From Streptomyces pactum (GTDB lineage: Bacteria; Actinomycetota; Actinomycetes; Streptomycetales; Streptomycetaceae): a stretch of 64,000 nt of DNA. Positions 11,995-38,489 of this stretch are shown here, in pieces. A program made the translations under genes and the position numbers. Position 1 is the stretch's first letter. Every line of letters starts with the position of its first letter. The notes beneath the pieces are model-generated. The model was not told the origin of the DNA and did not search any database. It saw nothing but the letters and a program-made list of their open reading frames with translations. Location: the NCBI RefSeq assembly GCF_002005225.1, contig NZ_CP019724.1:1240001-1304000 (forward strand), given 5' to 3'.

Positions 11995-13863
11995 TCATCC
12001 GGCGGGGTCCGTGTGGGTCGGCTCCATGGGTGCCGACGAGCGATCGACGCGGGTCGGCTCCATCGGCGCGGGCTTCGCGGGGGCCGGCTCCGGGTGCTGC
12101 TGGGTCTCCGCGAGGCCGATGCCGCGCTGGAAGGCCGCCATCAGTCCGGGGTCGTGGCCGGTGTACTGCTCGGGTTCCTGGCGCGGTGCGGGGCCGCCGC
12201 GCAACTGGGGTGCGATGTGCTCCTGGGCGCGGCGGCGGGGCAGTTGGGGCTTGCCCATGGTGCCGCGCACCGCACTGTGGCGCGGGACGGGCGGGGTGGC
12301 CGCGTGCTCGGCGAGGACGCCCCGGTCCCCGGGCCGGACACCGGGCACGGCGGCGGCCGGGGTGGGCCGGTCCCGGTGGGCGCCGCGTACGGGCAGCGGC
12401 ACGGGCTCACCCCTGTCGGCCCGGCGGACGAGGGCCTCAGCGGGCGCTGCGGAGGGCGGATCCGACGCCGCGTCGGCCGGAGCGCCGGGAGTCGGCACGG
12501 GGGCGGCCGAAGCGGGTGTGGCAAAACCGGGTGCGGCGGGGGCCGACGACCCGGCGGGGGCCGCGGGCCCGGGCCGCCCCGGGGACGCCGGTACGGGCAC
12601 GGGCTCGGCCCCGGTGACCTCCGCCGGCCGGGCCACGCCTCCGGGCAGGGCGCCCGGCTCCGCGCCCAACAGGGCCTGCGGCACGACCAGTACGGCCTGC
12701 ACACCGCCGTAGATGTTGGTCTGCAGGCGGACGGTGATCCCGTGCCGCTTGGCGAGCTGGGAGACGACGTACAGCCCGATGCGGCCGTCCGCGAGCAGAC
12801 GGGCGACGTTGACCTGGTCGGGGTCGGCGAGCAGGGCGTTCATCCGGCTCTGCTCGCCGACGGGCATGCCGAGTCCGCGGTCCTCGACCTCGACGGCGAG
12901 GCCCGAGGTGACGAGGTTGGCGCGCATCAGGACCTGGGTCTGCGGGGCGGAGAACAGGGTGGCGTTCTCGACGAGTTCGGCCAGCAGGTGGATGACGTCG
13001 GCGACGGCGTGACCGCGCAGGGTCCCGTCGATCGGGGGGACGAGCCGGACCCGCGAGTACTGCTCGACCTCGGCGATGGCCGAGCGGAGCACCTCGGTCA
13101 TGTCGACGGGGTTGCTCCACTGCCGGCGGGAGACGGCGCCGCCCATCACGGCGAGGTTCTCGGCGTGGCGGCGGATACGGGTGGCGAGGTGGTCGACGTG
13201 GAAGAGGCCCTTGAGGAGGTCGGGGTCCTCGATCTCGTTCTCCAGCTCGTCCAGGATGGAGATCTCGCGGTGCACCAGGGACTGCAGGCGCCGGGCGAGA
13301 TTGACGAAGACCTCCAGTTTCTGTTCGCTGCCCGCCTGGCTGGAGAGCTGGGCGGCCCGGACGACGGCGGTGACGGCGCCGTCGTGGGCTCGGGACAGAT
13401 CGGCGGCGAGCAGTTCGAAGTCGTCGGCGTCGTCGGGCGGTCCGCCGCGCGGCTTGCGCTGGGGCGGGGTCTCACCGCGGCGCAACGCCTCGACCACGGC
13501 GCGCAGATCGCCCTCCGAGCGCGCGGTGCTGCGGCGCAGGGCACCGACGCGGTCGCGCACGGACCGCGCGGCGCGGTCGGCGGCGACGGCGGCGACGGCG
13601 ACGGCCGCGAGGGTCACCGACACCGCCCCGGCGAGCACGACCCACAGGACGACGCCGGGCCGGGCGCCGGTGGACCGGACGGTGAACAGGACGACCGCGC
13701 AGGCGCCGAGGGCCACCGCGACGGGCGGCAGCACGGCGAGACGCAGGAGCTGGGGCCGTATGTGGCTCTCGGGAAGCGCGGGGGCGGTACGTGAGGCCGG
13801 CCGGCCGTGCCGCCCGCCCTCACGGCGGTCTGCTCGCGCGGCCGGGGCGCGGAGGTGAGACAT
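11995..13863 (-). CDS. cvnA: Conservon sensor histidine-kinase-like ATPase (CvnA-type)
   Basis: A 622-residue membrane sensor. Two adjacent hydrophobic helices (~40-62 and ~72-95) follow a charged N-terminus. A helical linker comes next. The HATPase domain (~280-400) has ELVENATLFSAP (N box), VEDRGLGM (G1) and DGRIGLYVVSQLAKRHGI (G2). A conserved phospho-acceptor His is not evident, as usual for conservons. The final ~200 residues are Pro/Ala-rich and probably disordered, and may dock the B-C-D partners. ATG 13863 starts the operon; 340 nt of non-coding DNA separate it from the divergent hydrolase gene. Confidence 0.93.
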   Translation of the reverse strand: MSHLRAPAARADRREGGRHGRPASRTAPALPESHIRPQLLRLAVLPPVAVALGACAVVLFTVRSTGARPGVVLWVVLAGAVSVTLAAVAVAAVAADRAARSVRDRVGALRRSTARSEGDLRAVVEALRRGETPPQRKPRGGPPDDADDFELLAADLSRAHDGAVTAVVRAAQLSSQAGSEQKLEVFVNLARRLQSLVHREISILDELENEIEDPDLLKGLFHVDHLATRIRRHAENLAVMGGAVSRRQWSNPVDMTEVLRSAIAEVEQYSRVRLVPPIDGTLRGHAVADVIHLLAELVENATLFSAPQTQVLMRANLVTSGLAVEVEDRGLGMPVGEQSRMNALLADPDQVNVARLLADGRIGLYVVSQLAKRHGITVRLQTNIYGGVQAVLVVPQALLGAEPGALPGGVARPAEVTGAEPVPVPASPGRPGPAAPAGSSAPAAPGFATPASAAPVPTPGAPADAASDPPSAAPAEALVRRADRGEPVPLPVRGAHRDRPTPAAAVPGVRPGDRGVLAEHAATPPVPRHSAVRGTMGKPQLPRRRAQEHIAPQLRGGPAPRQEPEQYTGHDPGLMAAFQRGIGLAETQQHPEPAPAKPAPMEPTRVDRSSAPMEPTHTDPAG

Positions 13864-14204
13864 CGGGGTCCTCGTACTGGTCCGTTGGGCCGTCGGGTCC
13901 AGGTGCTCGCGCGTGACCGCTGAATCCGGCCCTACGTCGCCCGACGGACACTGACAGTAGTCGCCCGTGCATCATGTGCGGTGGGCAGTTGACAAAACCC
14001 CTCGGGCAACGTCCCGCTCTGGTATGAGGCCTCGTACGACAGACCGATAAGCCGGTGAAGCACTCGCTCCAAAGACGCCGGAGACCGGTCGCACCTGATC
14101 GGAAACGGTCACTGTCGGTGAGCGCACCGGCCGTCACTTCCAAGAAAAGTGCACGGTCGTTCGTGCTAATGTCTCGCCATCCGACGTCGATCGAGGAGCA
14201 CTCC
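13864..14204. other. Divergent intergenic region, conservon / hydrolase
   Basis: No gene is seen. The region must hold the conservon promoter (leftward) and the hydrolase promoter (rightward). A GCACG-N6-CGTGC inverted repeat at 14151-14166 abuts a -10-like TAATGT (14167-14172), 33 nt before the hydrolase ATG. Confidence 0.6.
14151..14166 (+). promoter_or_regulatory. GCACG-N6-CGTGC inverted repeat before the hydrolase
   Basis: Arms at 14151-14155 and 14162-14166 lie just upstream of TAATGT. The same half-sites recur as CGCACG-GG-CGTGCG at 15121-15134, upstream of the nearby TetR gene. A shared operator for that TetR protein is plausible but untested; the spacers differ (6 against 2). Confidence 0.4.
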
Positions 14205-15119
14205 ATGAAGTTCAGCGAGGCCGTTCCGAGCGTCACCCTCAACGCCCTCTCCCGCGTCTCCGGACGGCTGGCGGGCTCGGCCGCCTTCACCCTGTTCCAC
14301 ATGCCGCTCGCCCGCAGCAGGACGCGGACCTCCGAGCGAGCGCTGCTGCAGAGGGCGCGCGTCGACCGTGTGGACGTCCACGGCAGGCACGCCGTCACGT
14401 ACCAGTGGGGCGACGGCGTACGCCCCGTGCTCCTGGTGCACGGCTGGCAGTCACGGGCTTCTCGCCTGTGCGGCCTGATCGACGGGCTCCTGGACCGCGG
14501 CCACAGCGTGGTCGCCTTCGACGCCCCCGGACACGGCGAGTCGCCCGGCCGCAGCACCACCATCCTCGACTACCGCGCCGTGATCACCGCGCTCCACGAG
14601 CGGCACGGCCCGTTCGACGCCCTGGTCGCCCACTCCCTGGGCGCGCTGGCTTCGTTCTTCGCCCTGGAGCACGGGGTGAAGGCGGAGCGGATCGTCGTCA
14701 TCGGCGGGGTCTGCGACTACGACTACCTGGTCGACGAGTTCTGCGCGGCGCTCGCGCTGCGCCCCCGGCTCAAGGCCCAGTTGCACGCACAGGTCGCGAG
14801 GAGGCTGTTTCCCGGGATACCGGCCCACCGGAGCCCCTTCTCCGCGACGGACACCGCGCGGGAGGTGCACTCACCGGTCCTGGTGATCCACGACGCGGGC
14901 GACACGAGGATCCGGCCGGAGCAGGGGCACCGGCTCGCCGCCGCCTTCGGCGACCGGGCCCGCCTGGTCGTGACGGACGGGCTCGGGCACCGGCGGATCC
15001 TGCACGATCCCGATGTCGTGCGAACCGTCCTCAACTTCGTCGAGCACGAGCGAGACCGGGACCGGGACCGGGACCGGGACCGGGACCGGGACCGATCTCG
15101 AGACCGGGCTGGACACTAA
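14205..15119 (+). CDS. Alpha/beta hydrolase with a C-terminal Arg-Asp repeat
   Basis: A 304-residue alpha/beta hydrolase. ATG 14205 has GAGGAG 6 nt upstream; the frame is open from 14055 but lacks an earlier ribosome-binding site. The oxyanion region is LLVHGWQSRASRL and the nucleophile elbow is AHSLGA, with the acid in VIHDAGDTRI and the His in DGLGHRRIL. The cap region includes VCDYDYLVDEF. The last ~20 residues are an Arg-Asp dipeptide run encoded by a hexanucleotide repeat (15054-15095), unlike other hydrolases and probably a dispensable tail. The substrate is unknown. A TetR gene follows on the same strand and may regulate it. Confidence 0.9.
   Translation: MKFSEAVPSVTLNALSRVSGRLAGSAAFTLFHMPLARSRTRTSERALLQRARVDRVDVHGRHAVTYQWGDGVRPVLLVHGWQSRASRLCGLIDGLLDRGHSVVAFDAPGHGESPGRSTTILDYRAVITALHERHGPFDALVAHSLGALASFFALEHGVKAERIVVIGGVCDYDYLVDEFCAALALRPRLKAQLHAQVARRLFPGIPAHRSPFSATDTAREVHSPVLVIHDAGDTRIRPEQGHRLAAAFGDRARLVVTDGLGHRRILHDPDVVRTVLNFVEHERDRDRDRDRDRDRDRSRDRAGH
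15054..15095 (+). repeat. GACCGG hexanucleotide tandem repeat
   Basis: Six perfect GACCGG units (15054-15089) and a seventh with one change (15090-15095) encode the Arg-Asp run at the end of the hydrolase. Unit length keeps the frame, so copy-number change would alter only tail length. Confidence 0.95.
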
Positions 15120-15120
15120 C

Positions 15121-15148
15121 CGCACGGGCGTGCGCCATTCGCTACACT
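15121..15148 (+). promoter_or_regulatory. Candidate TetR promoter with palindrome
   Basis: A perfect palindrome CGCACG-GG-CGTGCG (15121-15134) is followed by a -10-like TACACT (15143-15148), about 120 nt before the TetR start. It begins just after the stop of the hydrolase gene. No good -35 is visible. Confidence 0.4.
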
Positions 15149-15186
15149 CGAGCGACCTCATCGGCGCGCAGACCGCCGCGGAGACC

Positions 15187-15248
15187 GACTCGGGGATCGA
15201 CTCGGGGATCGGCACAGAGGCTCCGGCGATCGGCACAGAGGCTCCGGC
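15187..15248 (+). repeat. Two nested tandem duplications ahead of the TetR gene
   Basis: A 12-bp unit (15187-15198, 15199-15210) overlaps a 21-bp unit repeated perfectly (15207-15227, 15228-15248). The repeats occupy the leader of the TetR gene, ending 18 nt before its ATG and next to its GGGAGAG ribosome-binding site. They could affect leader structure or arise from slippage. Confidence 0.9.
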
Positions 15249-15266
15249 TCGGGAGAGTAGGCACAC

Positions 15267-15917
15267 ATGGGTACGACGGCCGCACACGTCGACGGGCGCA
15301 TCGCCCGGGGGAACCAGACCCGTCAACTGGTGCTGAAGCGCGCCGTGGACACCGCCTCGGTCGACGGCCTCGAGGGACTGTCCCTGGGCCGTCTCGCCAG
15401 CGAGCTCGAGCTGAGCAAGAGCGGCGTCTTCGCCCTGTTCGGTTCGAAAGAGGACCTGCAGCTCGCGACCGTCCGAGCGGCGATCCGGATCTACCGGGAA
15501 CACGTGGTCCAGCCCGCCCTCGACCTGCCACCGGGCCTCGGCCGCCTGTGGTGTCTGTGCGCCCGCTGGATCTCCTACTCACGGGAACGGGTCTTCCCCG
15601 GCGGCTGCTTCTTCTACTCCGTCTCGGCCGAGTACGACGCCCGCGCGGGGAAGGTTCACGACGCGCTGGCCGAGGCCCGCGCCGACTGGCTCGCCTTCGT
15701 CGAGACGACGGCGGCGGAGGCGAGGCGGGCGGGCGACGTCGCCGAGACGGCCGACGTTCCCCAGCTCGCCTTCGAGATCGTCGCGCTGCTGGAAATGGCC
15801 AACGCCGAGTCGGTGCTGCACGACGAGTTCGCCAGCTACGGCCGGGCGGCCAAGGGCATCCTGGACCGCCTGCGCGCCGTGGCCACCGACCCGTCGCTGC
15901 TGCCCGAGGCACCCTAG
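15267..15917 (+). CDS. TetR-family transcriptional regulator
   Basis: A 216-residue TetR regulator. The N-terminal helix-turn-helix (residues ~15-65) reads VLKRAVDTASVDGLEGLSLG, then RLASELELSKSGVFALFGSKE. The C-terminal ligand domain includes SRERVFPGGCFFYSVSAEYD, which is typical of the subgroup with a TetR_C-type dimer domain. ATG 15267 has a GGGAGAG ribosome-binding site. It lies 147 nt downstream of the hydrolase and probably controls that gene or itself. The ligand is unknown. Confidence 0.93.
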   Translation: MGTTAAHVDGRIARGNQTRQLVLKRAVDTASVDGLEGLSLGRLASELELSKSGVFALFGSKEDLQLATVRAAIRIYREHVVQPALDLPPGLGRLWCLCARWISYSRERVFPGGCFFYSVSAEYDARAGKVHDALAEARADWLAFVETTAAEARRAGDVAETADVPQLAFEIVALLEMANAESVLHDEFASYGRAAKGILDRLRAVATDPSLLPEAP

Positions 15918-15929
15918 CTAGGCCGTGTT

Positions 15930-16841
15930 TCAGGTAGCGGGTGAGTCTTGGGCGGACAGCTCTTCGGCCAGTTCCAAACAGCGCAGGCGGGCCGGGGAGA
16001 AGTCGTAGGGCATCTTGCCGGTGGCTTCGAACACGCTCATGGAGTGAGCCTCCCGCCTGCCAGAGCTGAGGTCGGCCTCGTCCTCGCGGCCATCGGCAGT
16101 AGCAGGGTGCACAGTGTCCCAGGCGTCGCAGAGGGCATCGTCGTCCTTACCCAGGCCGGACTCCTCGATGACGGCCTGCAGGGCGCTTTCGAAGGCGTGC
16201 CGCTCGACGGCCACTCGAGCCACCCGCGGATCATCGACGGCGACACTGTCATCGAGTGCCTCCTCGGCGTCATCGATGCGGTCGGACGCCTCCCGCAGAG
16301 TGGGATGCGTGGCCAGGACGACGAAGCGGGTGGCCTGGACGGCCGCGCCGAGCGGGCCGAAGATCCGCTCAGTGACCAGCAGGCTGTCCAGGTCCGCCTG
16401 ACGCAGGGAGCCCTCGGGCAGGCTCTTGAGGCGTTCGGTGACGAAGTCGGAGAGCAGGCCCATCCGGCTGCCTTCGGTGCGCATCCGCTGCACGGCGGTC
16501 CGTTGCCGCCGCAATTCCGCCTCCTGCTCGGCGAGGGTCTCCGCCAACCGCTCCAGGATGCCCGCGATACCGTCTCCGCTGTCCGCGCCGGCGGAAGCCG
16601 TGCCGGTGGCAAGGGCGTCACGGATGTCGTCCAGGGCGATCCCGGCCTCGGCCATCTTGCGAATCCACAGTAGGCGGATCATGTCCTCGTACCCGTAGCG
16701 GCGGCGGTCATCGCCGCCCCGCTCAGGCTCGGGGAGCAGGCCGATCTCGTGGTAATGGCGAATCGCCCGTGGCGTGCTGCCGGCGAAGGCCGCCGCGTCA
16801 CCGATCTTGACCTGGCGGGGTGGCGTGAAAGACGAATGCAT
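15930..16841 (-). CDS. MerR-family transcriptional regulator, long form
   Basis: A 303-residue protein with a MerR DNA-binding domain at residues ~10-75 (KIGDAAAFAGSTPRAIRHYH, RRYGYEDMIRLLWIRKMAEA). A coiled coil follows (~95-130, LERLAETLAEQEAELRRQR), and then a ~170-residue helical effector domain. This is much longer than classical metal-sensing MerR proteins and lacks their cysteine ligands, so it more likely senses an organic ligand. ATG 16841 (MHSSFTPPRQ) has a GGAAAGG ribosome-binding site; the upstream open frame is not conserved-looking. It is convergent with the TetR gene. Confidence 0.88.
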   Translation of the reverse strand: MHSSFTPPRQVKIGDAAAFAGSTPRAIRHYHEIGLLPEPERGGDDRRRYGYEDMIRLLWIRKMAEAGIALDDIRDALATGTASAGADSGDGIAGILERLAETLAEQEAELRRQRTAVQRMRTEGSRMGLLSDFVTERLKSLPEGSLRQADLDSLLVTERIFGPLGAAVQATRFVVLATHPTLREASDRIDDAEEALDDSVAVDDPRVARVAVERHAFESALQAVIEESGLGKDDDALCDAWDTVHPATADGREDEADLSSGRREAHSMSVFEATGKMPYDFSPARLRCLELAEELSAQDSPAT

Positions 16842-16896
16842 GAGCAGGGACCTTTCCTTCAGGGATCGGGACGCAAGTCCACCGGACCACATGCCG

Positions 16897-17178
16897 CTAC
16901 GGAAGGTGCAACCCCCTGCACCGCCCCGCGTCGGCCCGGCCGAGGACCGGCAGGCGTGAAGGAGCCCGGTCCACCACCCCGACACGTACCCGTAGCACTA
17001 CCGCCAACGGGCGACTGCCATTCTCCGCCCGGAATCGTGCGACGACGAAAGACGTCACCCCGGCCAGAAGGCCGGTCACTGCCAAGTTCGTGCCCGCGTC
17101 GACCGAGCAGGCATGGAGAACCAGCGAAAAAGCGACTGTGATGCCCAGCGTGATACCCACCGCGCCGCCACGCTCCAA
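16897..17178 (-). CDS. Possible small membrane protein
   Basis: A 93-codon frame from a TTG codon (17178). Its first half encodes two hydrophobic stretches (GAVGITLGITVAFSLVLHAC and LAVTGLLAGVTSFVVARF), while the second half is Arg/Val-rich and looks less coding-like. There is no convincing ribosome-binding site; an in-frame GTG at VGITLG could be the start. It lies upstream of the MerR gene on the same strand. I do not recognise a family; it could be a real two-helix protein or chance. Confidence 0.35.
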   Translation of the reverse strand: MERGGAVGITLGITVAFSLVLHACSVDAGTNLAVTGLLAGVTSFVVARFRAENGSRPLAVVLRVRVGVVDRAPSRLPVLGRADAGRCRGLHLP

Positions 17179-17412
17179 CCCCCGGCTGATTCTTCACCGG
17201 TGACTGCTGCGCGCCATGGCCCCGGCCCCTCCTTCTGTCACCACCGCTAAACCCGATCTCACCTGTCACTCAAGCCGCCCATGTGGCGGCCATCCACGTT
17301 CGGCCGCTTCGGAGTGGCAGTCGGACAACGACACCTTGCCAGGCCCACAACACGGCTGCCACAGTGGACGCCGCGAGCGCGCGGCGCTTTGCCGCAGGGT
17401 GTGGGGGGCGCC

Positions 17413-18717
17413 ATGAGAGCGGGCACATTATTCGGTTGGTTCGGCGTGCGCATGCCGTTCGGTTCACGAACTGTGGCTCATGTCGATCAGCTCCAGCTGT
17501 ATCACCAGGCATTCGGACGCACCACGCATCATCACGGCGGAGAGCGGATCGAGGTCGCGTTGCGGCTGTCTCCCGGTGACGAAATCGCCGAGGTGAGCGT
17601 CAGAATCCCCATTCCGGCGGTGGAACTGATAGCGCCCGGAGCTCCCCTGATGCTCGTCTCGGCACCCCGTGGGAGTGGAGACAGGCCGATCGAACTCACC
17701 GCACTCGTGAGCGAATCCGGTGCGGAGCATTTGGTGAGCCGAAGAACGGCCGCGTCCAACACCATAAGCGCGCCCGCAGACGGACACGAACGCGATGCGC
17801 CCTGGGCGTTCTCGTTCCAGGCGTGGGAATTGATCACGCCACCGCAGGGGGTCGCACCCTACATATTCGCGACAGCGGACATGCGGCTGCGATTTCCCGC
17901 CATGGCGAATTTCCCCTTACTGCTCACCGTCATCACCCCCGAAGACGTCTCACCACGTTCCACACAGGGCAACTTCGCCATGGCATATCCTTCACGACTG
18001 CTCAACGGACAGCGTTACACCAACATCTACTTCCCCTCTGCCGAAGAAGTGCGCCTCGCCTACCGCTGCGGGGTCAGCGGCCAGTTGGCGGGGAGCCCCT
18101 GGGTCAGCGTGGGCCGGGCGGCTTTCAACTCGCTCTTCGTCTTCTTCGTCGGCTTCCTTGCCGCCTCGGTCGATCGCAACGACCGATTCGTCGCGCTTCT
18201 GGCAATCTTCATCGCCGCGGCCAGCGCTCTGTGGGAGATCATCCAGGAAGTTGCCCGGTTCACGATCTACGGAAGGGGCCGAGGCTTCATCCACGGCTTC
18301 GTACTGGCCGCACAACTGGTCTCGCTCATGGTGCTGGCCTCGTCGGTGGTCAGTATCGGCCTGGCGGACTCCGACCGTCTGCTGAGCTACTCGTCCTACA
18401 CGGCACTGGCCGCGTCAGCGGCTCTGTCCCTGCTGGCCTGCGCTGGGCTCGTCCTCCATCACCAGGGGTTCTGGCAGGGTTTCCAGTGCGATCACCTCGG
18501 ATGCCGGACGGTGTTCCGGATACGCCGCGACCGCCCTGAATGCCGTTACACGGGGCGCGTGTTCTGCGGCCGGCACGCGAGCAGTGTGTGCGGCGGTTGT
18601 GTGCACGGCCCGGACCTGCGGTCAGGAATGATCACGACTATCGACGACTACCGCACGGATCGACTGCGCTGCCGCGGGTGGACCCCGGTGCCGCCCGGAG
18701 GAACGGATGGCCCATGA
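17413..18717 (+). CDS. Unrecognised membrane protein with Cys-rich C-terminus; TTA codon
   Basis: A 434-residue protein from ATG 17413 (MRAGTLFGWFGV); ATG 17452 is an alternative, and the frame is open from 17281. Residues ~1-230 look like a beta-rich soluble domain with no family I recognise. Four hydrophobic helices follow (e.g. AAFNSLFVFFVGFLAASVD; RFVALLAIFIAAASALWEII). The cytosolic tail has about eight cysteines (CDHLGC, PECRY, FCGRHASSVCGGC), like a zinc ribbon. Codon 169 (17917-17919) is TTA, rare in Streptomyces and usually a sign of bldA control. GC is visibly lower than in the flanks. The stop overlaps the methyltransferase ATG, so it is the first gene of the 17.4-22.7 kb cluster. 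Confidence 0.8.
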   Translation: MRAGTLFGWFGVRMPFGSRTVAHVDQLQLYHQAFGRTTHHHGGERIEVALRLSPGDEIAEVSVRIPIPAVELIAPGAPLMLVSAPRGSGDRPIELTALVSESGAEHLVSRRTAASNTISAPADGHERDAPWAFSFQAWELITPPQGVAPYIFATADMRLRFPAMANFPLLLTVITPEDVSPRSTQGNFAMAYPSRLLNGQRYTNIYFPSAEEVRLAYRCGVSGQLAGSPWVSVGRAAFNSLFVFFVGFLAASVDRNDRFVALLAIFIAAASALWEIIQEVARFTIYGRGRGFIHGFVLAAQLVSLMVLASSVVSIGLADSDRLLSYSSYTALAASAALSLLACAGLVLHHQGFWQGFQCDHLGCRTVFRIRRDRPECRYTGRVFCGRHASSVCGGCVHGPDLRSGMITTIDDYRTDRLRCRGWTPVPPGGTDGP

Positions 18718-19445
18718 CGAGGTTTGTCTGGTCACGAGACTGGCGGAAGTTCTTCGGTGACGAGCCGTATCCGTTCGACCTCGCCCAGGTCGAGAAACGG
18801 GACGGAGCGCAGGGGCCGATGCGCCTGGTGACCGCGGTACTCGGGCCGCGCACCCCCCAAAGAGTGCTCGACCTGGGTTGCGGCTACGGGCGGCACATGG
18901 CCGCTCTGGCCGCGGCGGGACACCATGTGTACGGCACGGACCGCAGCGGTCGTGCCGTGGCACGTGCTGGCGCACGTCACCCCCGGGGCGTCGCTGTCGT
19001 GGCGGACAACGGAGAACTGCCCTTCCGGGACGCCGTCTTCGACGCCGCCGTCTCGTTGTACACCAGCGTCGGCTATGCGGGTGCCGGTCCGCGCACGGTG
19101 TTCGCACAGGCCGGCCGGGTCGTACGTCCTGGAGGCCACCTGATCGTCGACGTGGCCGACGGCAGGCGGCGGCCGATCAGCGTGGGCTGTGAGCTGGTGC
19201 CCGGCGGGATGGGGTTCTGGCTGCGCTACGGCACGCGGCGACAGGTCCGGCAGCGGAACCTCGCCCTGTCCCGGCAGGCCATCGGTCTGTACGGGTTCGA
19301 GTACCGGCGTTACACCCCTTCGTCCCTCGCCGCGGACATCGAACACGACGACGTGTGGACCGTCGTGACCATGCAAAGCGGCTTCGACGCGCAGCCCGTC
19401 ACCGGCCACAGCCGTCGCATCGTGGTGGTGGCATGCCGCAAGTGA
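18714..19445 (+). CDS. Class I SAM-dependent methyltransferase
   Basis: A 243-residue methyltransferase. ATG 18714 overlaps the preceding stop (ATGA) with CGGAGGAAC just upstream. Motif I is VLDLGCGYGRHMAALAAAG, the acidic residue after strand 2 is YGTDRS, and motif II/III follow as ELPFRDAVFDAAVSLY and AGRVVRPGGHLIVDVAD. This is a Methyltransf_11/25-type small-molecule O-, N- or C-methyltransferase. The acceptor is unknown; the neighbours suggest a sugar-containing or isoprenoid-linked intermediate. Its last 13 nt overlap the GT4 start. Confidence 0.9.
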   Translation: MTRFVWSRDWRKFFGDEPYPFDLAQVEKRDGAQGPMRLVTAVLGPRTPQRVLDLGCGYGRHMAALAAAGHHVYGTDRSGRAVARAGARHPRGVAVVADNGELPFRDAVFDAAVSLYTSVGYAGAGPRTVFAQAGRVVRPGGHLIVDVADGRRRPISVGCELVPGGMGFWLRYGTRRQVRQRNLALSRQAIGLYGFEYRRYTPSSLAADIEHDDVWTVVTMQSGFDAQPVTGHSRRIVVVACRK

Positions 19446-20593
19446 CGACCGTCCATGCCACCGTGGAGTTCCGGTACCGCGCTTGGGGCGGGATCGCCAG
19501 TGCCCTGGATCTGATGGTCGCGGCCGCTCAGCACGCCAGGCACGACACCCTGATCCTGACCGTGGGTTCCCGCGACGCACTGCACCGGCTCTCCCCGGAC
19601 GTCAGAGTCTGCACCGTCGGTCTGCCGGAGCTGGAGGGGCAGCCGCTGTACCGCAGCGCACGGCGAGTGCAACTGGGCCAACTGGCCGCCCAGCGGCTGA
19701 CGGCCATGCTGCCGCGACTGACGGGGGGAGGCGAAGCGGACCTCCTCGTGCACAGCGAGGAATTCGGCACGCTGCTGCAGGCTCCGACCGGCGTACGCCG
19801 ACGCGTGTTCGTATCCCACGGCCTGGCCGTACAGGAACATCCGCATCGCCCGGACCTCGTGGAACAGGAACGACGCACACTGGCTGCCGCGGACACGGTC
19901 GCCGTCCTGTCCGACGCCCAGGCCGGCACGATGCGCCACGCGTATCCGGAGCTGCGCAACGTGCGGGTGATGCCGCTCCCTCTGATACTGCTCACCGAAC
20001 AGATCAGGCCCGTATCGGCGGCGGAATTCGGGCGCGGACCGATCGTCGCCGCGGGCCGGTCCGTCCGGCAGAAGGGCTTCGACATCCTTCTGCGGGCGGT
20101 ACGAGCGGCCCAGGACACCGACCGCGCCGGCGAGGAGCGGCCTGCACTGCCGCCCGTCATCGTGTACACGGGACATGGCGACACGGATTGTCTCGACGAG
20201 TGCCGTCGACTCGCCGCGGACTGCGGCCCCCGTGTGACGCTCGAACCCTGGCTCCCCCGGAAACAGCTCATGGCGGCGTTGCGCCGTGCCCGCGTGGTGT
20301 GCGTCCCCTCTCGGTTCGAACCCGTTGGGCTGATCGCCGCCGAGGCACTGGCGCTGGGCATCCCCGTCGTGGCATCGCACGTCGGCGGACTGCCCGACCT
20401 CTTGGGCGCGACGACGCGCACGGGATGGACCGTACCCGTCCTCGGGGACGACGGCCCCGCGCCGGGGGAGCTGGCCGACTGTCTGGTTACGGCGGCCCGC
20501 CGCACCACCGGCCCGACTGCAGGGCCCGAAGAACTGCGCCGTTGGCCGCTGGACCGGCATCTGTCCGCGTTGGCCCACATCCTCGACCGGTAG
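19433..20593 (+). CDS. Glycosyltransferase family 4
   Basis: A 386-residue GT-B glycosyltransferase starting at ATG 19433 (MPQVTTVHATVEF), overlapping the methyltransferase. The N-terminal half has VEFRYRAWGGIASALDLMV, a glycine-rich acceptor loop. The C-terminal half has VAAGRSVRQKGFDILLRAV and the retaining-GT E-x7-E motif in SRFEPVGLIAAEALALG, followed by PVVASHVGGLPDLL. GT4 enzymes transfer a sugar from a nucleotide donor with retention. Donor and acceptor are unknown. Confidence 0.92.
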   Translation: MPQVTTVHATVEFRYRAWGGIASALDLMVAAAQHARHDTLILTVGSRDALHRLSPDVRVCTVGLPELEGQPLYRSARRVQLGQLAAQRLTAMLPRLTGGGEADLLVHSEEFGTLLQAPTGVRRRVFVSHGLAVQEHPHRPDLVEQERRTLAAADTVAVLSDAQAGTMRHAYPELRNVRVMPLPLILLTEQIRPVSAAEFGRGPIVAAGRSVRQKGFDILLRAVRAAQDTDRAGEERPALPPVIVYTGHGDTDCLDECRRLAADCGPRVTLEPWLPRKQLMAALRRARVVCVPSRFEPVGLIAAEALALGIPVVASHVGGLPDLLGATTRTGWTVPVLGDDGPAPGELADCLVTAARRTTGPTAGPEELRRWPLDRHLSALAHILDR

Positions 20594-20604
20594 TCGGAGG
20601 CACT

Positions 20605-22074
20605 ATGCGACCGCGCACCCTCCTGGCAACGCCCAACTGGGCCTGGGACCGCTCACCCCTCCCCGTGGACACCCTCCACCCACCGCCCGGCATGCCCCTG
20701 GAGTTCGCCTATCTGGCAGGCGCGTCGAGCGGCACCGCGGAGATACGCATTTTCGACGGCTACGCCGCCGGGGCCGGGCCTGGCGACCTGTCCGAGCAGG
20801 TGGCCGAGTTCGCGCCCACCTGCGTCGTCGTGACCACCACCCCCTCCCTGCTGTACTGGAGGTGTCCACCCATGTCGGTGGACGCGGTCGCCACCGCGGT
20901 GACGGCAGTTCGGCAGGCCGCGGACTGTCCCGTCGTCCTCATCGGCCCCCATCCCACTTTCACCCCCGACTGGACGCTCGAGCACACCGGTGCCGACGCG
21001 TGCTGGAGGGGAGCCTTCGAACGAGACCTGGCACCCCTGCTCGGCCACGGTCTCGACCGAGGCTCCCGCCACCTGCACATCCGCTCCCGGGCCGGCGCCG
21101 GACCGCCGCCGGACGCCGGCATCGCGGTACTCCACCCGGCACAGCTACCCACGGCCGCCTTCACCCACTTCGACCGATCCCTCACGTACGCCCCCCACAT
21201 GTGGTGCGTCACCGACGAGGAACGCCGCCGCCTCACCCCCCTCGTCTCCGGTGCGCTTCTGGAGTCATCCCGCGGGTGCCCCTGGACGTGTGCCTACTGC
21301 GCCAAAGGACCGGTACGCGACCGCTTCGCCCGGAGACCACTGCAACGTCTTTCCGCCGAGCTGCGTGAGCTGGTCGACCGAGGCGTGGACTACGTCTTCT
21401 TCATCGACGAGACGTTCAACGTCCCCGGTCCCGACCTGCGAGCGCTGCTCGCCCAGCTCGCCCGTCTGCCCCTGTCCTTCGGTTTTCAGGGCCGCGCCGA
21501 TCTGATGTCCTCGGCGATGACCGACGCCCTGGCACAGGCCGGCTGTGTCTACGCCGAACTCGGCGTGGACGTCGTGTCCGACTCCCTGGCCAAGGAGATC
21601 GGCCGACGCCAGCACCTGGAGCGCTGTGAACGCGGCATCGACACCGCACGGGCGGCACTGCCCGTCGTACGCTTCAACCGGCTCAACCTGCGCACCGTCG
21701 ACTATCTCGACATCTACGAGCAGGACGACACCGACGACTGGGACTACCCACCCGATCCCGCCTACCCCTACCCCGGCGCACCGCTCGGCGAGGCGCTCAT
21801 GAAGCACTACGGCCGTACGGCCTTCGACTGGGCCTTCGCCCAGCGCTACTCATGGTGGCTCCGCCTGGAAGTACACCTCCAGCGCACCCAGCCCGGCCTG
21901 CCCCTCGCCACGATACGAAGCCTTGAGGACGCCTTCCTGAACCTCGACGCCCCAGCGGCCGCGGCGCTCGCCGGATCGATGGAGGAAGTAGTCGCGGTCC
22001 CCGAGTTCCACCAGCAGAACAAATCCATCCACGGTATGGGGGAAAATGTTCGAGTTCGTCATCCCCGCACGTAA
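20605..22074 (+). CDS. B12-binding-domain radical SAM enzyme
   Basis: A 489-residue enzyme from ATG 20605, with CGGAGG upstream. Residues ~1-150 form a cobalamin-binding Rossmann domain (VVLIGPHPTFTPDWTLEHTG, then ADACWRGAFERDLAPLL). The [4Fe-4S] motif CxxxCxxC is C225, C229, C232 in GCPWTCAYCAKG, followed by YVFFIDETFN and GFQGRADLM of the radical SAM barrel. Family members perform methylations of unactivated carbons or rearrangements. Substrate unknown; I recall a B12-radical-SAM subfamily found beside glycosyltransferases (TIGR04295-type), not checked here. The last 29 nt overlap the GT2 gene. Confidence 0.92.
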   Translation: MRPRTLLATPNWAWDRSPLPVDTLHPPPGMPLEFAYLAGASSGTAEIRIFDGYAAGAGPGDLSEQVAEFAPTCVVVTTTPSLLYWRCPPMSVDAVATAVTAVRQAADCPVVLIGPHPTFTPDWTLEHTGADACWRGAFERDLAPLLGHGLDRGSRHLHIRSRAGAGPPPDAGIAVLHPAQLPTAAFTHFDRSLTYAPHMWCVTDEERRRLTPLVSGALLESSRGCPWTCAYCAKGPVRDRFARRPLQRLSAELRELVDRGVDYVFFIDETFNVPGPDLRALLAQLARLPLSFGFQGRADLMSSAMTDALAQAGCVYAELGVDVVSDSLAKEIGRRQHLERCERGIDTARAALPVVRFNRLNLRTVDYLDIYEQDDTDDWDYPPDPAYPYPGAPLGEALMKHYGRTAFDWAFAQRYSWWLRLEVHLQRTQPGLPLATIRSLEDAFLNLDAPAAAALAGSMEEVVAVPEFHQQNKSIHGMGENVRVRHPRT

Positions 22075-22732
22075 TGAGTCGCAGCGGATCGGGACCGTCA
22101 TCGCCGACCTGCGAGACACCCACGGCGCGGACGCGCGGATCGTGGTCGCCGACAACGCGAGCGACGACGGAACCGCGGAGACGGCGAAGGTCGCCGGCGC
22201 CGACGAGGTCGTCCATGTGGGACGAGTCGGCAAGGGGTTCGCCGCGACGGCCGCCATGAAGTCGTGCACCGGCGAGTTCGTGATGCTCTGTGACGCCGAC
22301 ATCAACGGGCTGGACCGGATGTCCGTGGCGGACCTGCTCGCCGAGGTCCGGCACCGCGGCCTGCCACTGGGCCGCCTCGACCTGCAACGCAGCCCGCACG
22401 ACGCCCCCGTCACCACCCTCACCGCATCGCCCCTGCTCCACCTGCTGGGAGTCCACGGCACCCGCGAACCGCTGGGCGGCCTGATGGCGCTGGATCGCGA
22501 CTTCGTTCTGGACCTCCACCTCCCGGGGGACTGGGGCTTCGACGTCGCTCTGACCCTGGCCGCGCTCGACCGAGCCGGGGAGGTCCCCGAACGGCCCGCA
22601 CCACACGTCACCCACCGCCGCCGACATCTGGGTACCTATCGGCAGATGGCCGAACAGGTGAGCGCCGCCGTCCTGCGTCATCATCACCTCCTGCCGTGGG
22701 ACCACGGCAACTGCACACGGTGTCCCACGTAG
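22046..22732 (+). CDS. Glycosyltransferase family 2
   Basis: A 228-residue GT-A glycosyltransferase. FVIPARNESQRIGTVIADL and VVADNASDDGTAETAKVAGA are the nucleotide-binding strands, and CDADINGLD carries the DXD-like metal motif. LGGLMALDRDFVLDLHLPGD and WGFDVALTLAALD contain the ED/D acceptor-side residues. It lacks transmembrane helices. It resembles glucosyl-3-phosphoglycerate-synthase-like or dolichol-phosphate-type GT2 enzymes. ATG 22046 overlaps the radical SAM gene, and it is the last gene of the cluster. Confidence 0.9.
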   Translation: MFEFVIPARNESQRIGTVIADLRDTHGADARIVVADNASDDGTAETAKVAGADEVVHVGRVGKGFAATAAMKSCTGEFVMLCDADINGLDRMSVADLLAEVRHRGLPLGRLDLQRSPHDAPVTTLTASPLLHLLGVHGTREPLGGLMALDRDFVLDLHLPGDWGFDVALTLAALDRAGEVPERPAPHVTHRRRHLGTYRQMAEQVSAAVLRHHHLLPWDHGNCTRCPT

Positions 22733-23126
22733 AGTTCGCACCCAGCCGCGGCGGGTGCAACGGCACCGTCGCGTCGTATGTCCTGGAAAGACGCCTTCCT
22801 GTGCCGCTGCTGCCCCGATTTCGGGCCCTCTTCGCCTGTGTCCCTCTCGAGCACACGGTCTTCACCGTCAGTTCGCCTGGGCGACACGGTAGACGGCACG
22901 ACTGACAACCGGGCCCTCCGCCGGTGGCTCAGCGCTTCACGACGCGTGTTTCAACGACAACGCGAGACAGACCCGCCAAGGACGGCAACGGCCTGAATCG
23001 CTGAGCAGGAGCTTGACGCTCCGCCCTGGGCCGCCCCGTCCGAGGCCCGGACCACACCGTCACGCGCCTCAGCCGGGAGACGCTCCGGCGTCCGGGCCAT
23101 CTCCCCCAGCTCGTCCCCGACCGGCC
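22733..23126. other. Intergenic region after the 17.4-22.7 kb cluster
   Basis: No gene I can support. Several short frames occur (e.g. an ATG at 22778), but none has a ribosome-binding site or a recognisable product. It marks the boundary between the lower-GC cluster and ordinary high-GC sequence; I see no clear terminator. Confidence 0.55.
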
Positions 23127-24320
23127 TCACCGCTCACCAGCGAGGTCGAGATCACCCTTGCTCGTCTCAGCCATGCCTTCAGCACCCCGGGGGCGGCGCC
23201 ACGGGTGCGCGAGCGGACCGGACACCGCCCGCCACCACGGCCCCACTGGCAGCTCCCCCGCCGGCTCGAACGGCTCGCCCGGCCGCGGGAACGCCGCCGC
23301 CTGGCCAGCCTCCTCAGCCGCGTCCTTCGTCCACTCCCCCGGCTCCGCCCACGCGTGCGGCGCCAGGTTGAAGGTGCCCCAGTGAATCGGCAGCAGGGCA
23401 CCGCCCGGACCGCCTCCCTGCAGGTCAAGGTGGGCCTGAACCGCCTGCGCAGGCGTCATGTGGATGTCCGGCCAGAACTCGGCGTACGCCCCGAGCTGGA
23501 TCATCGTGGCGTCGAACGGGCCGTGCGCGGCGCCGATGTCCCGGAAGCCGTCGAAGTATCCGGTGTCCCCGCTGTGGTAGACGCGGTGTTCGTCACCGGC
23601 GACGACCCAGGACGCCCAGAGGGTGTGCTGGGTGTTGCGCAGCCCGCGCCCGCAGAAGTGCCGGGCCGGGGTGGCGGTCAGGGTGAGCCCGCCGACGCGC
23701 GTCGACTCGTGCCAGTCCAGTTCGCGCAGCCGGCCGGCGGACACGCCCCAGTGTTCGAGGTGGGCGCCGACGCCGAGCGGCACGGCGAACACGGTGTCCG
23801 TGCCGGCCAGCGCCTTGATCGTGGGCATGTCCAGGTGGTCGTAGTGGTCGTGCGAGATGACGACGACGTCGACCGGGCCCAGGGCCGCCAGCGGCACCGG
23901 GACCGGATGCAGCCGCTTGGGACCGGCGAAGGAGAACGGGGAGCAGCGCTCGCCCCAGACGGGGTCGAAGAGCACCCGCTGTCCGTCGATCTCGGCGAGC
24001 ACGCTGGAGTGCCCCATCCAGGTCAGCCGCAGCCCGGTGGCGGGCGGCCGGGCGAGGTCGGCGAGCGTGGTGGCGTGCACCGGGACCGGGCCCCGGGGAG
24101 CGCGGCGGAGCCTCGCCTCCCGGTCGAAGTAGATCTTGGCGAACTCGCGGGCCGATCCGGAGGGCCGGGTCCGGGCGGTGCCCCCGGGATTCTGGAAGAC
24201 GCCGTCACCGAAGTGCGGCGATCTGCGGATACGCGCCATGCGCTCACCGCTCGGGTCCGCGCCGAAGGCCGCGGGCCGCGGCATGCGGAGCCCGGCGCTC
24301 GGGGAACGGAAACCGGCCAC
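23127..24320 (-). CDS. MBL-fold metallo-hydrolase (NAPE-PLD/UlaG-like)
   Basis: A 397-residue metallo-beta-lactamase-fold hydrolase. The zinc ligands are SHDHYDHLD (HxHxDH), ARHFCGR and SGDTGYFDGF, and the terminal His lies in LPIHWGTFNL. The order and the MGHSSVLAEIDGQRVLFDPV segment fit the NAPE-phospholipase-D/UlaG-like group acting on phosphodiesters or lactones. GTG 24320 has GGAGG 4 nt upstream. It stands alone, with divergent genes on its upstream side. The substrate is unknown. Confidence 0.92.
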   Translation of the reverse strand: MAGFRSPSAGLRMPRPAAFGADPSGERMARIRRSPHFGDGVFQNPGGTARTRPSGSAREFAKIYFDREARLRRAPRGPVPVHATTLADLARPPATGLRLTWMGHSSVLAEIDGQRVLFDPVWGERCSPFSFAGPKRLHPVPVPLAALGPVDVVVISHDHYDHLDMPTIKALAGTDTVFAVPLGVGAHLEHWGVSAGRLRELDWHESTRVGGLTLTATPARHFCGRGLRNTQHTLWASWVVAGDEHRVYHSGDTGYFDGFRDIGAAHGPFDATMIQLGAYAEFWPDIHMTPAQAVQAHLDLQGGGPGGALLPIHWGTFNLAPHAWAEPGEWTKDAAEEAGQAAAFPRPGEPFEPAGELPVGPWWRAVSGPLAHPWRRPRGAEGMAETSKGDLDLAGER

Positions 24321-24488
24321 GGTACCTCCAGGTGGAGTAGGTCAGGCTCTCATTATCGTCTCGTCCGACATCACCTCGAACGACGGATGTCACATCCGTG
24401 TTCCTTCCGCCCGTCGTACCGGTGAGGGCGCCCCCGCGAGAGCGCCCGGAAGACGAAGGCACGACCGACGGACCGGAAGGTGGCCCTC

Positions 24489-25073
24489 ATGGCCCGCGTA
24501 TCCCTCACCCCGCCCCGGACGCTCCTCCTCCGCGTCATGGAGCGGTACTCCCGGCGCACCTACGGCAAGGTTCTCGACCCCGGCAAGGCGCTCGCCCACA
24601 ACCCCCGCGTGCTCTGGAGCGACCTGCGGTTCGAGCAGTCGGTGGCCAAGTGGAACAGGCTGGACCCCGACCTGAAGGCGCTCGCCGTGCTGGCCTCGGC
24701 GGCCTCGATCGGCTGCTCCTGGTGCATGGACTTCGGCTACTGGGAGAACGCCGAGCGCGGCATGGACCGGCGCAAGTTGCACGACGTGCCGGTGTGGCGG
24801 GAGAGCGACGCCTACACACCGCTGGAGCGGGACGTCATGGAGTACGCGGAGGCGGTGACGGCGACCCCGCCCGCCGTCGGCGACGACCTCGCCGGGCGGC
24901 TGCGGGCCCGGCTGGGCGAGCCCGCGTTCGTGGAGCTGACGGCCATGGTCGCGGTGGAGAACCTGCGCTCCCGGATCAACGCGGCGCTCGACCTCACCAG
25001 CCAGGGCTTCAAGGACTCCTGCGACCTGCCCGACGCGGGCCCCGCGGCCGCGGCCGCCGCCACGACGGACTGA
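24489..25073 (+). CDS. Carboxymuconolactone decarboxylase (AhpD-like) family protein
   Basis: A 194-residue protein with the AhpD/CMD core: KWNRLDPDLKALAVLASAAS, then IGCSWCMDFGYWENAE. CxxC (CSWC) is the redox-active pair of alkylhydroperoxidase-like members, followed by a conserved acidic/His-type helix. ATG 24489 has GGAAGG 8 nt upstream; GTG 24480 is the longer frame. Members act as peroxidase partners or as decarboxylases; the CxxC points to redox activity. A TetR gene follows on the same strand and may regulate it (inference). Confidence 0.88.
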   Translation: MARVSLTPPRTLLLRVMERYSRRTYGKVLDPGKALAHNPRVLWSDLRFEQSVAKWNRLDPDLKALAVLASAASIGCSWCMDFGYWENAERGMDRRKLHDVPVWRESDAYTPLERDVMEYAEAVTATPPAVGDDLAGRLRARLGEPAFVELTAMVAVENLRSRINAALDLTSQGFKDSCDLPDAGPAAAAAATTD

Positions 25074-29448: not shown

Positions 29449-30095
29449 GGCGTTCCTCCGGGGGCGGGGTGGACCGGCGTGGTGGCCGGTCCCAGGCACA
29501 GTGCGGCCGTCGGGCTCTGCAGCAGGGTGTGGACGAAGAGGAGCTCGACCCCGTCGGCGTCCTGGGCGGCGATCCGGTGCGGGGTCAGCGAGTCGAAGTG
29601 CGCGCCGTCGCCCGGACCCAGCGGGTGCACGGTGTCCCCGAGGCGCAGCCGCAGCCGGCCCCGCAACACGTACAGCCACTCCTCGCCGGGGTGCACCCGC
29701 ACGATGTCGCCCTGCGAGCCGTGCGGCACACGGACCCGCAGGGCCTGCATACCGCGACCGGCGCCGCCGGCCTGCCAGTACGTCCAGCCGCCCGCGAAGG
29801 TCGGCTCCATGGCGTCGGCGCGCACGACGGCGTCCCGGTCGGCGGCCGTCTCGCCGAGCAGCTCCGAGACGGTCGTACCGTAGACCCGGGCGAGGGAGAG
29901 CAGCATCGGCAGTGAGGGCTGGCGCTGCCCGGTCTCCAGGCGGGAGAGGTGGGCGGGCGACAGCCCGGCCGCACCGGCCGCCGTCTCCAGGGTGAGGGCG
30001 GCCCGGCGCCGCAGGGCACGCAACTGGGGCGCCACGACGGACACCGCGTCCGCCGGCGCGTCCGGCGACGGCGGACCGGTCTCAGGAGAGGTCAT
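29445..30095 (-). CDS. XRE-family regulator with C-terminal cupin
   Basis: A 216-residue regulator. Residues ~22-78 form the helix-turn-helix (QLRALRRRAALTLETAAGAA, LSPAHLSRLETGQRQPSLPM). Residues ~120-200 form a cupin (RVHPGEEWLYVLRGRLRLRL). It is coupled by ATGA to the DUF6126 gene. GGAGG lies only 1 nt before ATG 30095, so the true start may be further in, or the transcript short-leadered. Two identical-half palindromes (30116-30150) lie 21-55 nt upstream and probably are its own operator sites. It is unlike the first XRE-cupin of this window in N-terminal length. Confidence 0.9.
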   Translation of the reverse strand: MTSPETGPPSPDAPADAVSVVAPQLRALRRRAALTLETAAGAAGLSPAHLSRLETGQRQPSLPMLLSLARVYGTTVSELLGETAADRDAVVRADAMEPTFAGGWTYWQAGGAGRGMQALRVRVPHGSQGDIVRVHPGEEWLYVLRGRLRLRLGDTVHPLGPGDGAHFDSLTPHRIAAQDADGVELLFVHTLLQSPTAALCLGPATTPVHPAPGGTP

Positions 30096-30115
30096 GCCTC
30101 CATTCAGCCCGAAAC

Positions 30116-30150
30116 TTGCCCGCTGGGCAATTTTCTTGCCTCAGAGGCAA
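30116..30150 (-). promoter_or_regulatory. Twin TTGCC-N5-GGCAA operator
   Basis: Two 15-bp palindromes, TTGCCCGCTGGGCAA (30116-30130) and TTGCCTCAGAGGCAA (30136-30150), are centred exactly 20 bp apart (two helical turns). They lie directly upstream of the XRE-cupin gene and downstream of the aminotransferase gene. The layout fits cooperative dimer binding by the XRE protein. Confidence 0.65.
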
Positions 30151-30186
30151 AGACGGCACGCGGCCGAAGGCGGCGGCCGGTGACTC

Positions 30187-31572
30187 CTAACGATTGGCCA
30201 CCGCCTGCCTGACCAGGGTCTTCCCGAAGTCCCACAGCAGGCCGCCGCCGTTGTGCGCGTCGTCCATCACCTCGGTGAAGGCGTCGACGAACCGGTCCGC
30301 GTCCGCCGTGTCGATGATCAGCGGCGGGATCAGTTTGATCACCTCCAGGTGGTCGCCGGACACCTGCGTCAGGATCCGGTGCCGTTGCAGCAGCGGCACC
30401 ACCACCATCTGCGCGAACAGACCCTTGCGCGCGGTCTGCAGCATCGTCCAGCGGCTGCGCAGCCTCAGCGATCTCGGCCGGCCGAACTCGATGCCGATCA
30501 TCAGCCCCCGCCCCCGGACGCCGGCGAGCAGCTCGTAGCGGTCCACCAGCTCCGCCAGCCGGGACTTCAGCCGCTCCCCCACCGCGGCGGCGTTCGCGAC
30601 GATCTCCTCGTTCTCCATCACCGACAGCACGGCGAGCCCGGCCGCCATGGCCTGCGCGTTGGACCCGAAGCTCGCCGAGTGGACCTGAACCCGGTCCATC
30701 GACGAGAACACCTTCTGGAAGATCCAGTCCTTGCCCAGCGTGGCCCCCACCGGCACGTATCCGCCGGACAGCGCCTTGGCGACGCACACCAGGTCGGGCT
30801 CCACGCCGTCCTCGTGCTGGAAGGCGTAGAACTTACCGGTCCGGCCGAGGCCCGTCTGCACCTCGTCGGCGATCAGCAGCGCCTTGTGCCGGTGCAGCAG
30901 CTCCTGTGCGGCGCGCAGATAACCGGGCGGGGCCTCGTGCACACCCTTGCCCTGGATCGGCTCGACGATCAGCGCGGCCACGTCGCCCCGCTTCAGCTCC
31001 CGGGCCAGGGCGTCCAGGTCGCCGAGCGGGAGGGCGGTGTCGGGCAGCAGCGGGGCGAAGCCGTCGCGGAAGCCGTCCTCGCCGTTGACGGACAGCGAGC
31101 CGGTGGTCAGCCCGTGGAAGGCGTGCGAGCAGTACAGGATCCTCGGCCTGCCGGTCGCGTACCGGGCGAACTTCAGCGCGGTCTCGACCGCCTCCGTACC
31201 GCTGTTGCCGAAGAAGACCCGGTCCAGGTGCGGGCTGTAGGAGAGCAGCCTCTCGGCCAGCAGTCCGGGCAGCGGTGGGCAGTCGAAGCGGGTCAGATCG
31301 GCCAGCGAGGCGTCGAGGACGTCGTGCAGCGCCTTGCGTACGACAGGGTGGTGGCGCCCCAGGCCCATCACCGCGAACCCGGCGAGCATGTCCAGGTAGT
31401 CGTTGCCGTCCGCGTCCCAGAAGTGCGCGCCCTCGGCCCGCTCGTAGACCTTGTCGAAGCCGATGGTGCGCAGCATGCGCGGGAGCTGGTGGTTGAGGTG
31501 CCTGGCGTGCAGCTCGTAGCGCTCGGCTCCGCGCTCGGCCAAGAGCGCGGCGAGGTCGAACTCCTTGGTCAT
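30187..31572 (-). CDS. hpnO: Aspartate aminotransferase family protein (HpnO-like)
   Basis: A 461-residue class III PLP aminotransferase. FFGNSGTEAVETALKFARYA is the cofactor loop, ALLIADEVQTGLGRTG holds Asp236, and the Schiff-base lysine is K266 in VCVAKALSGGYVPVG. As the last gene of the hopanoid operon, it most likely aminates the C35 end of the ribosyl/bacteriohopane chain to give aminobacteriohopanetriol, as proposed for HpnO. The start at ATG 31572 directly abuts the dxs stop. This assignment rests on family plus context, and related enzymes use ornithine or acetylornithine. Confidence 0.87.
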   Translation of the reverse strand: MTKEFDLAALLAERGAERYELHARHLNHQLPRMLRTIGFDKVYERAEGAHFWDADGNDYLDMLAGFAVMGLGRHHPVVRKALHDVLDASLADLTRFDCPPLPGLLAERLLSYSPHLDRVFFGNSGTEAVETALKFARYATGRPRILYCSHAFHGLTTGSLSVNGEDGFRDGFAPLLPDTALPLGDLDALARELKRGDVAALIVEPIQGKGVHEAPPGYLRAAQELLHRHKALLIADEVQTGLGRTGKFYAFQHEDGVEPDLVCVAKALSGGYVPVGATLGKDWIFQKVFSSMDRVQVHSASFGSNAQAMAAGLAVLSVMENEEIVANAAAVGERLKSRLAELVDRYELLAGVRGRGLMIGIEFGRPRSLRLRSRWTMLQTARKGLFAQMVVVPLLQRHRILTQVSGDHLEVIKLIPPLIIDTADADRFVDAFTEVMDDAHNGGGLLWDFGKTLVRQAVANR

Positions 31573-33513: not shown

Positions 33514-33540
33514 GCTCGGGCCCCCTTCGGTCCGTGCTGT

Positions 33541-34695: not shown

Positions 34696-34699
34696 ACCG

Positions 34700-35722: not shown

Positions 35723-35728
35723 CTGGGC

Positions 35729-38436: not shown

Positions 38437-38489
38437 GGCTTCCCCTTCGTGCAGTGTGCATACGGTGCTTCTGCTGTGGGTCCGCCGTC

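Follow-up and report, generated by a model that had tools for sequence, protein, structure and literature searches.

What do five tightly packed, low-GC genes in the genome of Streptomyces pactum make together, and how did they come to be there? The genes form a cassette at 17413–22732 of a 64,000-nt stretch of DNA (hereafter the window, to which all coordinates refer), taken from an 8.55-Mb source genome in a single contig. They encode known enzyme classes, among them a radical enzyme that is deeply divergent, and a membrane protein, P1, of no recognised family, and the cassette is real, compact, strain-level and unexplained. We propose, with a probability of about 0.38, that it is an operon whose single product is a small glycoconjugate, namely a short sugar chain, methylated and modified by radical chemistry, that is built on a hydroxy-acid acceptor, and that P1 acts at the membrane; that the product is a modified glycoconjugate of some kind would be the best general reading, in which we place more confidence than in this detailed scheme. 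The five genes are as follows (SAM, S-adenosylmethionine; GT, glycosyltransferase).

17413..18717, + strand: P1, a 434-aa membrane protein
18714..19445, + strand: class I SAM-dependent methyltransferase, 243 aa, by Pfam match and motif
19433..20593, + strand: GT4 glycosyltransferase, 386 aa, GlgA/MshA-like
20605..22074, + strand: B12-type radical SAM enzyme, 489 aa, a divergent relative of TIGR04295
22046..22732, + strand: GpgS/GT81-like glycosyltransferase, initially labelled 'GT2', 228 aa

Organization and composition of the cassette

An earlier note on this DNA, made from the sequence alone, had described five co-directional genes that overlap or lie at most 12 nt apart, and the junctions agree with that description: P1 and the methyltransferase gene overlap by 4 nt, the methyltransferase and GT4 genes by 13 nt and the radical SAM and 'GT2' genes by 29 nt, and the sole gap, between the GT4 and radical SAM genes, is 11 nt long and contains GGAGG. 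Three overlaps and one short gap form a unit arranged as in an operon. The reported drop in GC is equally clear, as the cassette (0.685) lies below every one of 48,041 windows of the same length that do not overlap it (mean 0.722, minimum 0.696); the absolute lowest-GC 5.3-kb stretch (0.681) begins near 16800 and overlaps the cassette. GC at third codon positions (GC3) is 0.756–0.864 in the five genes and averages 0.927 in 23 other genes hand-picked from the window, two of which are as low as the cassette genes (a MerR gene within the insertion described below, 0.836, and another at 0.858).

The same 23 genes served for counting TTA codons, which the earlier note had taken as a sign of developmental control. 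P1 has two (codons 6 and 169), and neither the other four cassette genes nor the comparison genes have any. A simple base-composition model already predicts about 3.2 such codons in P1, so a developmental explanation is unneeded and developmental control by this route is without special support. No Rfam family matched at gathering thresholds in 13500–24500, and the PADLOC matches on the cassette were all generic-looking, the methyltransferase being hit as mad2 and the radical domain as PDC-M51A.

Insertion site and distribution

The cassette sits with three other genes inside an insertion that can be delimited by comparison with relatives.

14055..23206, no strand: insertion of about 9.1 kb, with conservon genes on its left and a metallo-beta-lactamase (MBL)-fold hydrolase on its right

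Fifteen stretches around the MBL-fold gene were chosen out of 40 relatives, and 14 of them match both flanks (L031, where a left-flank match is absent, was excluded from the interval count). The flank-to-flank distance is 263–932 bp in seven of the 14 and 2.9–11 kb in the other seven, none of which has a cassette DNA match; some left-flank matches stop before 14054 (at 13330–13891), and those intervals take in the conservon end. Among the matches listed, short ones alone (58–83 bp) fall inside the cassette (G009, G020, G024, G681, G691). One annotated hydrolase occupies the corresponding site in Streptomyces fungicidicus, and the contents of the conservon/MBL-fold site differ among Streptomyces (L018–L030, L032). 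Because the site is so variable among strains, the cassette reads as a local arrival, and the supported interpretation is an operon-like unit that came into this S. pactum strain, in our proposal by horizontal acquisition. One of the seven longer intervals holds a transposase-like frame, read by eye. Repeats at the insertion ends are negligible (13800–14500 against 22701–23400: longest direct repeat 9 nt, longest inverted repeat 14 nt with a mismatch), and we therefore claim no insertion mechanism.

The distribution of the proteins is similarly narrow. Our statements on homology rest on scans of genomes, plasmids and contigs, and because the genome sets are samples of larger groups that partly overlap (the source genome being counted each time), rarity holds for the sample only. 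The radical SAM enzyme (E ≤ 1e-30) and P1 (E ≤ 1e-5) each occur in one of 295 genus genomes, the source genome itself, and thus in none of the 294 others sampled; the GT4 is likewise confined to the source genome among 198 phylum genomes (E ≤ 1e-30). Looser thresholds add a few candidates, which we rejected. At E ≤ 1e-15 the radical enzyme is matched in three of 396 genomes, and the two extra Actinomycetota matches (E 2.7e-19 and 5.6e-16) appear, by eye only, to be B12-type radical SAM proteins of other kinds, with unrelated genes around them. P1 is matched in three of 296 genomes at E ≤ 1e-3, the two extra matches being partial (73 and 50 residues; E 2.1e-4 and 8.9e-4) and judged to be chance from the frame listing at those sites, without a family search. 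The small glycosyltransferase is matched in two of 198 genomes at E ≤ 1e-15, and the additional match (G326, E 6.6e-16) is by eye a longer, membrane-bound GT2. Nor did we see the genes scattered through other genomes, a pattern that in the earlier note's view would lessen their novelty: for P1, the radical SAM enzyme, the GT4 and the 'GT2' the samples gave no close relative, and the methyltransferase was searched solely in plasmids and 86 related loci.

Further afield, the source genome itself has a second radical SAM match (E 1.8e-5, 29%), viral contigs gave seven distant loci, and phages gave no match to the radical enzyme. When genome contigs were scanned with exact words from the radical protein alone, no relative appeared (six stretches fitted a pattern), and a profile scan of the contigs found 470, the best 80 of which were analysed. 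Plasmids yielded no match to P1, and matches at 29–40% identity to the 'GT2' (two records), the methyltransferase (three) and the GT4 (one).

The insertion as a whole is a mosaic, in which a hydrolase–TetR piece and a MerR piece are matched separately in relatives. With such mosaicism in mind, the five genes might be a fragment of a larger pathway, the remainder of which lies elsewhere or has been lost, and alone might make nothing complete. It would accord with such a history that no nucleotide-sugar gene and no known export gene is found among the five (sugar-nucleotide genes elsewhere in the genome were not searched). The five open, overlapping frames, however, look maintained as one unit, and we consider a fragment unlikely.

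P1, the methyltransferase and the GT4

Searches of Pfam and NCBIfam at E ≤ 0.1 assign P1 to no family, in keeping with the earlier view that it has no recognised family; the one sub-threshold Pfam match is to a FYVE finger (E 0.45). Its hydropathy profile has four hydrophobic segments between residues 236 and 348 and a weaker one at 65–83, and six cysteines lie between residues 359 and 396. The structure prediction that the earlier note had suggested for this protein was run, and the single-sequence model (pLDDT 40) is unusable. The methyltransferase matches Pfam Methyltransf_11 at 61.5 bits (cut-off 21.2) and carries the motif VLDLGCGYG at residue 51, its other matches being generic. The GT4 matches Pfam Glycos_transf_1 at 61.2 bits (cut-off 26.4), has the EX7E motif of GT4 enzymes (EPVGLIAAE at 296) and is most similar to GlgA and MshA. 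The combination that had drawn attention to the locus, in which two glycosyltransferases and a methyltransferase accompany a B12-type radical SAM enzyme, is present, and in the open-licence PMC literature we found no pathway with this gene set, as the earlier note had surmised.

The radical SAM enzyme

B12-type radical SAM enzymes perform C-methylation, ring rearrangement and deoxygenation at unactivated carbons, reactions of which few other enzymes are capable. The cassette enzyme matches Pfam Radical_SAM at 51.6 bits (cut-off 29.5) and has the CxxxCxxC cluster motif of class B (CPWTCAYC, residues 225–232) as well as WRC at 85–87. Against the NCBIfam model TIGR04295 it scores 183.1–183.2 bits, below the curated cut-off of 400, and four members of that family score 661.9, 697, 728 and 774.3. 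The resemblance covers almost the full length of the protein, with identity near 30% and with WRC, CxxxCxxC-AK, FIDE and YPYP-type stretches in common, but in the tree the cassette enzyme stands outside the 82-row TIGR04295 clade (support 100/99), and its C-terminal W-FA-RY-WWL stretch, common to it and to archaeal proteins, distinguishes it from the TIGR04295 members compared. Judged by its sequence, the enzyme is deeply divergent within the B12-type class.

The canonical TIGR04295 cassette is widespread, with glycosyltransferases, in the plural, after the radical gene in six annotated loci (L005, L006, L035–L038); a TIGR04290 methyltransferase is near in all six and an inositol-3-phosphate synthase in four. 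Among nine matched plasmid records, all six TIGR04295 loci examined have a glycosyltransferase gene directly after the radical gene. Our searches of the open-licence PMC literature turned up no paper that names TIGR04295 or TIGR04290.

Such neighbourhoods bear on the possibility that the S. pactum cassette acts on a glycan or glycolipid of the cell surface or membrane, in which case the glycosyltransferases would decorate it, P1 would be its membrane anchor or a flippase, and a lipid-linked sugar would be the substrate that the radical enzyme tailors. TIGR04295 relatives do lie in multi-glycosyltransferase clusters (of the 80 contig loci, 70 have a GT4-type match and 32 a TIGR04290-type match), and the four hydrophobic segments of P1 would suit a membrane role. 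The window itself, however, lacks the canonical arrangement, which we took to be neighbouring epimerase/short-chain dehydrogenase/reductase genes, a GT4, three further glycosyltransferases and a TIGR04290 methyltransferase: none of the eight canonical cassette proteins of L006 is matched there at E ≤ 1e-8, and at least one of them is present in 76 of the 80 related loci. P1 resembles no family and is therefore no known flippase. A surface-glycan role is thus possible, if doubtful.

The nearest relatives of the enzyme in the tree are three proteins from archaeal metagenome-assembled genomes (MAGs; L039, L040, L041), to which it is sister (support 95/88) on a very long branch. These Nanoarchaeota/Woesearchaeota proteins are also the top three among the best 80 of the 470 relatives, and they have the C-terminal stretch in common with the cassette enzyme, but their identity to it is only 30–34%; because the branches are long, the archaeal grouping may be partly an artefact. 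The neighbourhoods differ as well, since in L039 and L040 a NodU-type carbamoyltransferase and a transporter-like protein (of the major facilitator superfamily, by eye) adjoin the gene, and neither is matched in the window. If the archaeal link is true, a gene set seen only in archaeal metagenomes would become approachable through a cultivable, engineerable Streptomyces.

The Woesearchaeota MAG locus L040 (1757–9314) encodes consecutively a methyltransferase, a glycosyltransferase of family 2, a PIG-L deacetylase, a second radical SAM protein, a DUF3419 protein, a NodU-type carbamoyltransferase and the B12-type radical SAM protein, and has the look of a locus for an archaeal glycan or natural product. 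Used against plasmids, its radical protein matched 25 records, TIGR04295 members first; four are from Streptomyces, those listed being 22–24% identical.

AprD4 is a radical SAM diol dehydratase of apramycin biosynthesis, and it is the first structural match of the predicted model of the cassette enzyme, which is good and resembles AprD4 and OxsB equally. AprD4 acts on the pseudodisaccharide paromamine, according to an excerpt of PMC5461906. The cassette enzyme falls well short of that family, being 18% identical to AprD4 and scoring 25.1 bits on the AprD4-family model against the NCBIfam cut-off of 500; as for AprD3, the partner reductase of AprD4, a search confined to the five cassette genes recognised no reductase. 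The earlier note had offered a methylated or rearranged glycoconjugate or a small natural product, and the first of these is the part that we retain, in the form of a modified glycoconjugate. A non-sugar natural product, in which the substrate of the radical enzyme would be a nucleotide or peptide (OxsB and TsrM likewise act on other substrates) and the glycosyltransferases would only finish the molecule, seems very improbable, as Pfam and NCBIfam place none of the five genes in peptide, nucleotide or polyketide formation.

A radical SAM enzyme close to hopanoid genes raises a further alternative, namely that the cassette tailors hopanoids. By synteny alone, about 30000–43200 is a Streptomyces hopanoid cluster, some 7 kb from the cassette, the syntenic S. 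fungicidicus record carrying hpnC, hpnD, hpnE, a polyprenyl synthetase gene, shc, hpnH, ispG, dxs and an aminotransferase gene next door; 82% of 40000–64000 aligns with that record at 86% identity. In other bacteria the HpnI/HpnK/HpnJ steps, in which HpnJ, a radical SAM protein, works alongside a glycosyltransferase and a deacetylase, convert bacteriohopanetetrol to a cyclitol ether (as described in part of PMC12583986). The HpnJ and HpnR models, however, give only 22 bits (cut-off 577.6) and 21 bits (cut-off 650) here, and Pfam and NCBIfam find no deacetylase among the five genes. Because different strains carry different DNA at this site, the hopanoid vicinity is probably a coincidence, and we regard hopanoid tailoring as decidedly improbable.

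The small glycosyltransferase

The earlier 'GT2' label changes on closer comparison. Seven distinct PDB sequences have matches at E ≤ 0.001, and every one is a GpgS, an MpgS or an unnamed structural-genomics entry, aligned with residues 4 to 209–211. On the GpgS model (NCBIfam cut-off 262) the enzyme scores 61.9 bits, or 60.1 in the whole-genome run, short of the cut-off; the source genome has ten matches to this model, among which a GpgS above the cut-off (435.9 bits) lies elsewhere and the cassette enzyme ranks second. It spans model positions 34–267, and the eight lower matches end at 218 or before.

The donor-site and acceptor-binding residues of GpgS also have counterparts here. In an excerpt of PMC2581804, Lys114, Asp134-x-Asp136 and Glu232 form the donor-site ion-pair network of GpgS, and Val186-Thr187 binds the acceptor carboxylate. 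In the cassette enzyme K63, D83-x-D85 and D166 align with the network, which is complete by comparison with the genome's own GpgS, and V122-T123 align with the Val-Thr pair that clamps the acceptor; an Asp at the last ion-pair position, as in D166, also occurs in MgS (same excerpt). With an alignment across most of the small enzyme and the Lys, DxD, acidic partner and Val-Thr pair all kept, the protein looks closer to GpgS/GT81 than to its GT2 label, but at 228 aa it lacks the N-terminal part of GpgS. Because the donor-site network and the Val-Thr pair are kept, we predict a retaining enzyme that acts on a hydroxy-acid acceptor, and note that a few residues and a similarity short of the cut-off are not enough to settle the substrate.

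A proposed pathway

The gene order, the insertion, the protein families, the residue alignments and a predicted fold were observed; in assembling them into a scheme we infer the substrates, the order of the steps, the use of cobalamin and the role of P1. The GpgS-like enzyme would first move a sugar from a nucleotide donor to a hydroxy-acid acceptor (for example glycerate) with retention, and the GlgA/MshA-like GT4 would add one or more further sugars. The methyltransferase would then O-methylate the chain, and the 5'-deoxyadenosyl radical of the radical SAM enzyme would abstract a hydrogen at a sugar carbon, leading to C-methylation (by methylcobalamin) or to deoxygenation or rearrangement at that carbon. 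P1 might anchor the enzymes at the membrane or transport the product. The overlapping frames, the common low GC and the failure to find the cassette in sampled relatives all argue for such a scheme.

The cassette invites an analogy with the mycobacterial methylglucose lipopolysaccharide (MGLP) genes, which include the Rv3030 methyltransferase and the Rv3032 glucosyltransferase (PMC2674218, in the part available). The cassette is like the MGLP set in uniting a methyltransferase, a glycosyltransferase and a GpgS-like enzyme, a likeness of gene types, but the same part of PMC2674218 offers no radical SAM counterpart and places GpgS in a different cluster.

In a bolder version this would be the first pathway known to yield a radical-tailored glycosyl-(hydroxy acid) oligosaccharide, started by the GpgS-like enzyme on glycerate or a similar acid and extended by the GT4, in which a new B12-type radical branch (with relatives closest in Nanoarchaeota/Woesearchaeota among the scans made) edits the sugar skeleton and P1 founds a new membrane-protein family; we think this quite unlikely. 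Even so, a divergent radical enzyme, a GpgS-like starter transferase and P1 together offer a small, testable route to a new enzyme reaction.

Other features of the insertion and its surroundings

The remaining genes of the insertion lie between its left end and P1.

14400..15917, + strand: alpha/beta hydrolase and TetR regulator (Pfam), a separate pair also matched in G023
15930..16841, - strand: MerR-type regulator (Pfam MerR_1), divergent from P1, start codon assumed

The hydrolase–TetR pair is probably not part of the cassette proper. The MerR-type regulator is a possible candidate controller of the cassette, and DNA of its region is matched at 90% in G021 and 82% in G019, both without the cassette. 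Just upstream of the MerR gene, a 62-bp stretch (16932–16993) is matched, with 90% of positions identical, at another place in the genome (L128, 2284–2345), and is possibly a shared operator or an element end. Farther to the left, at 4028–5242, a frame resembles an IS110-type transposase, on a by-eye reading.

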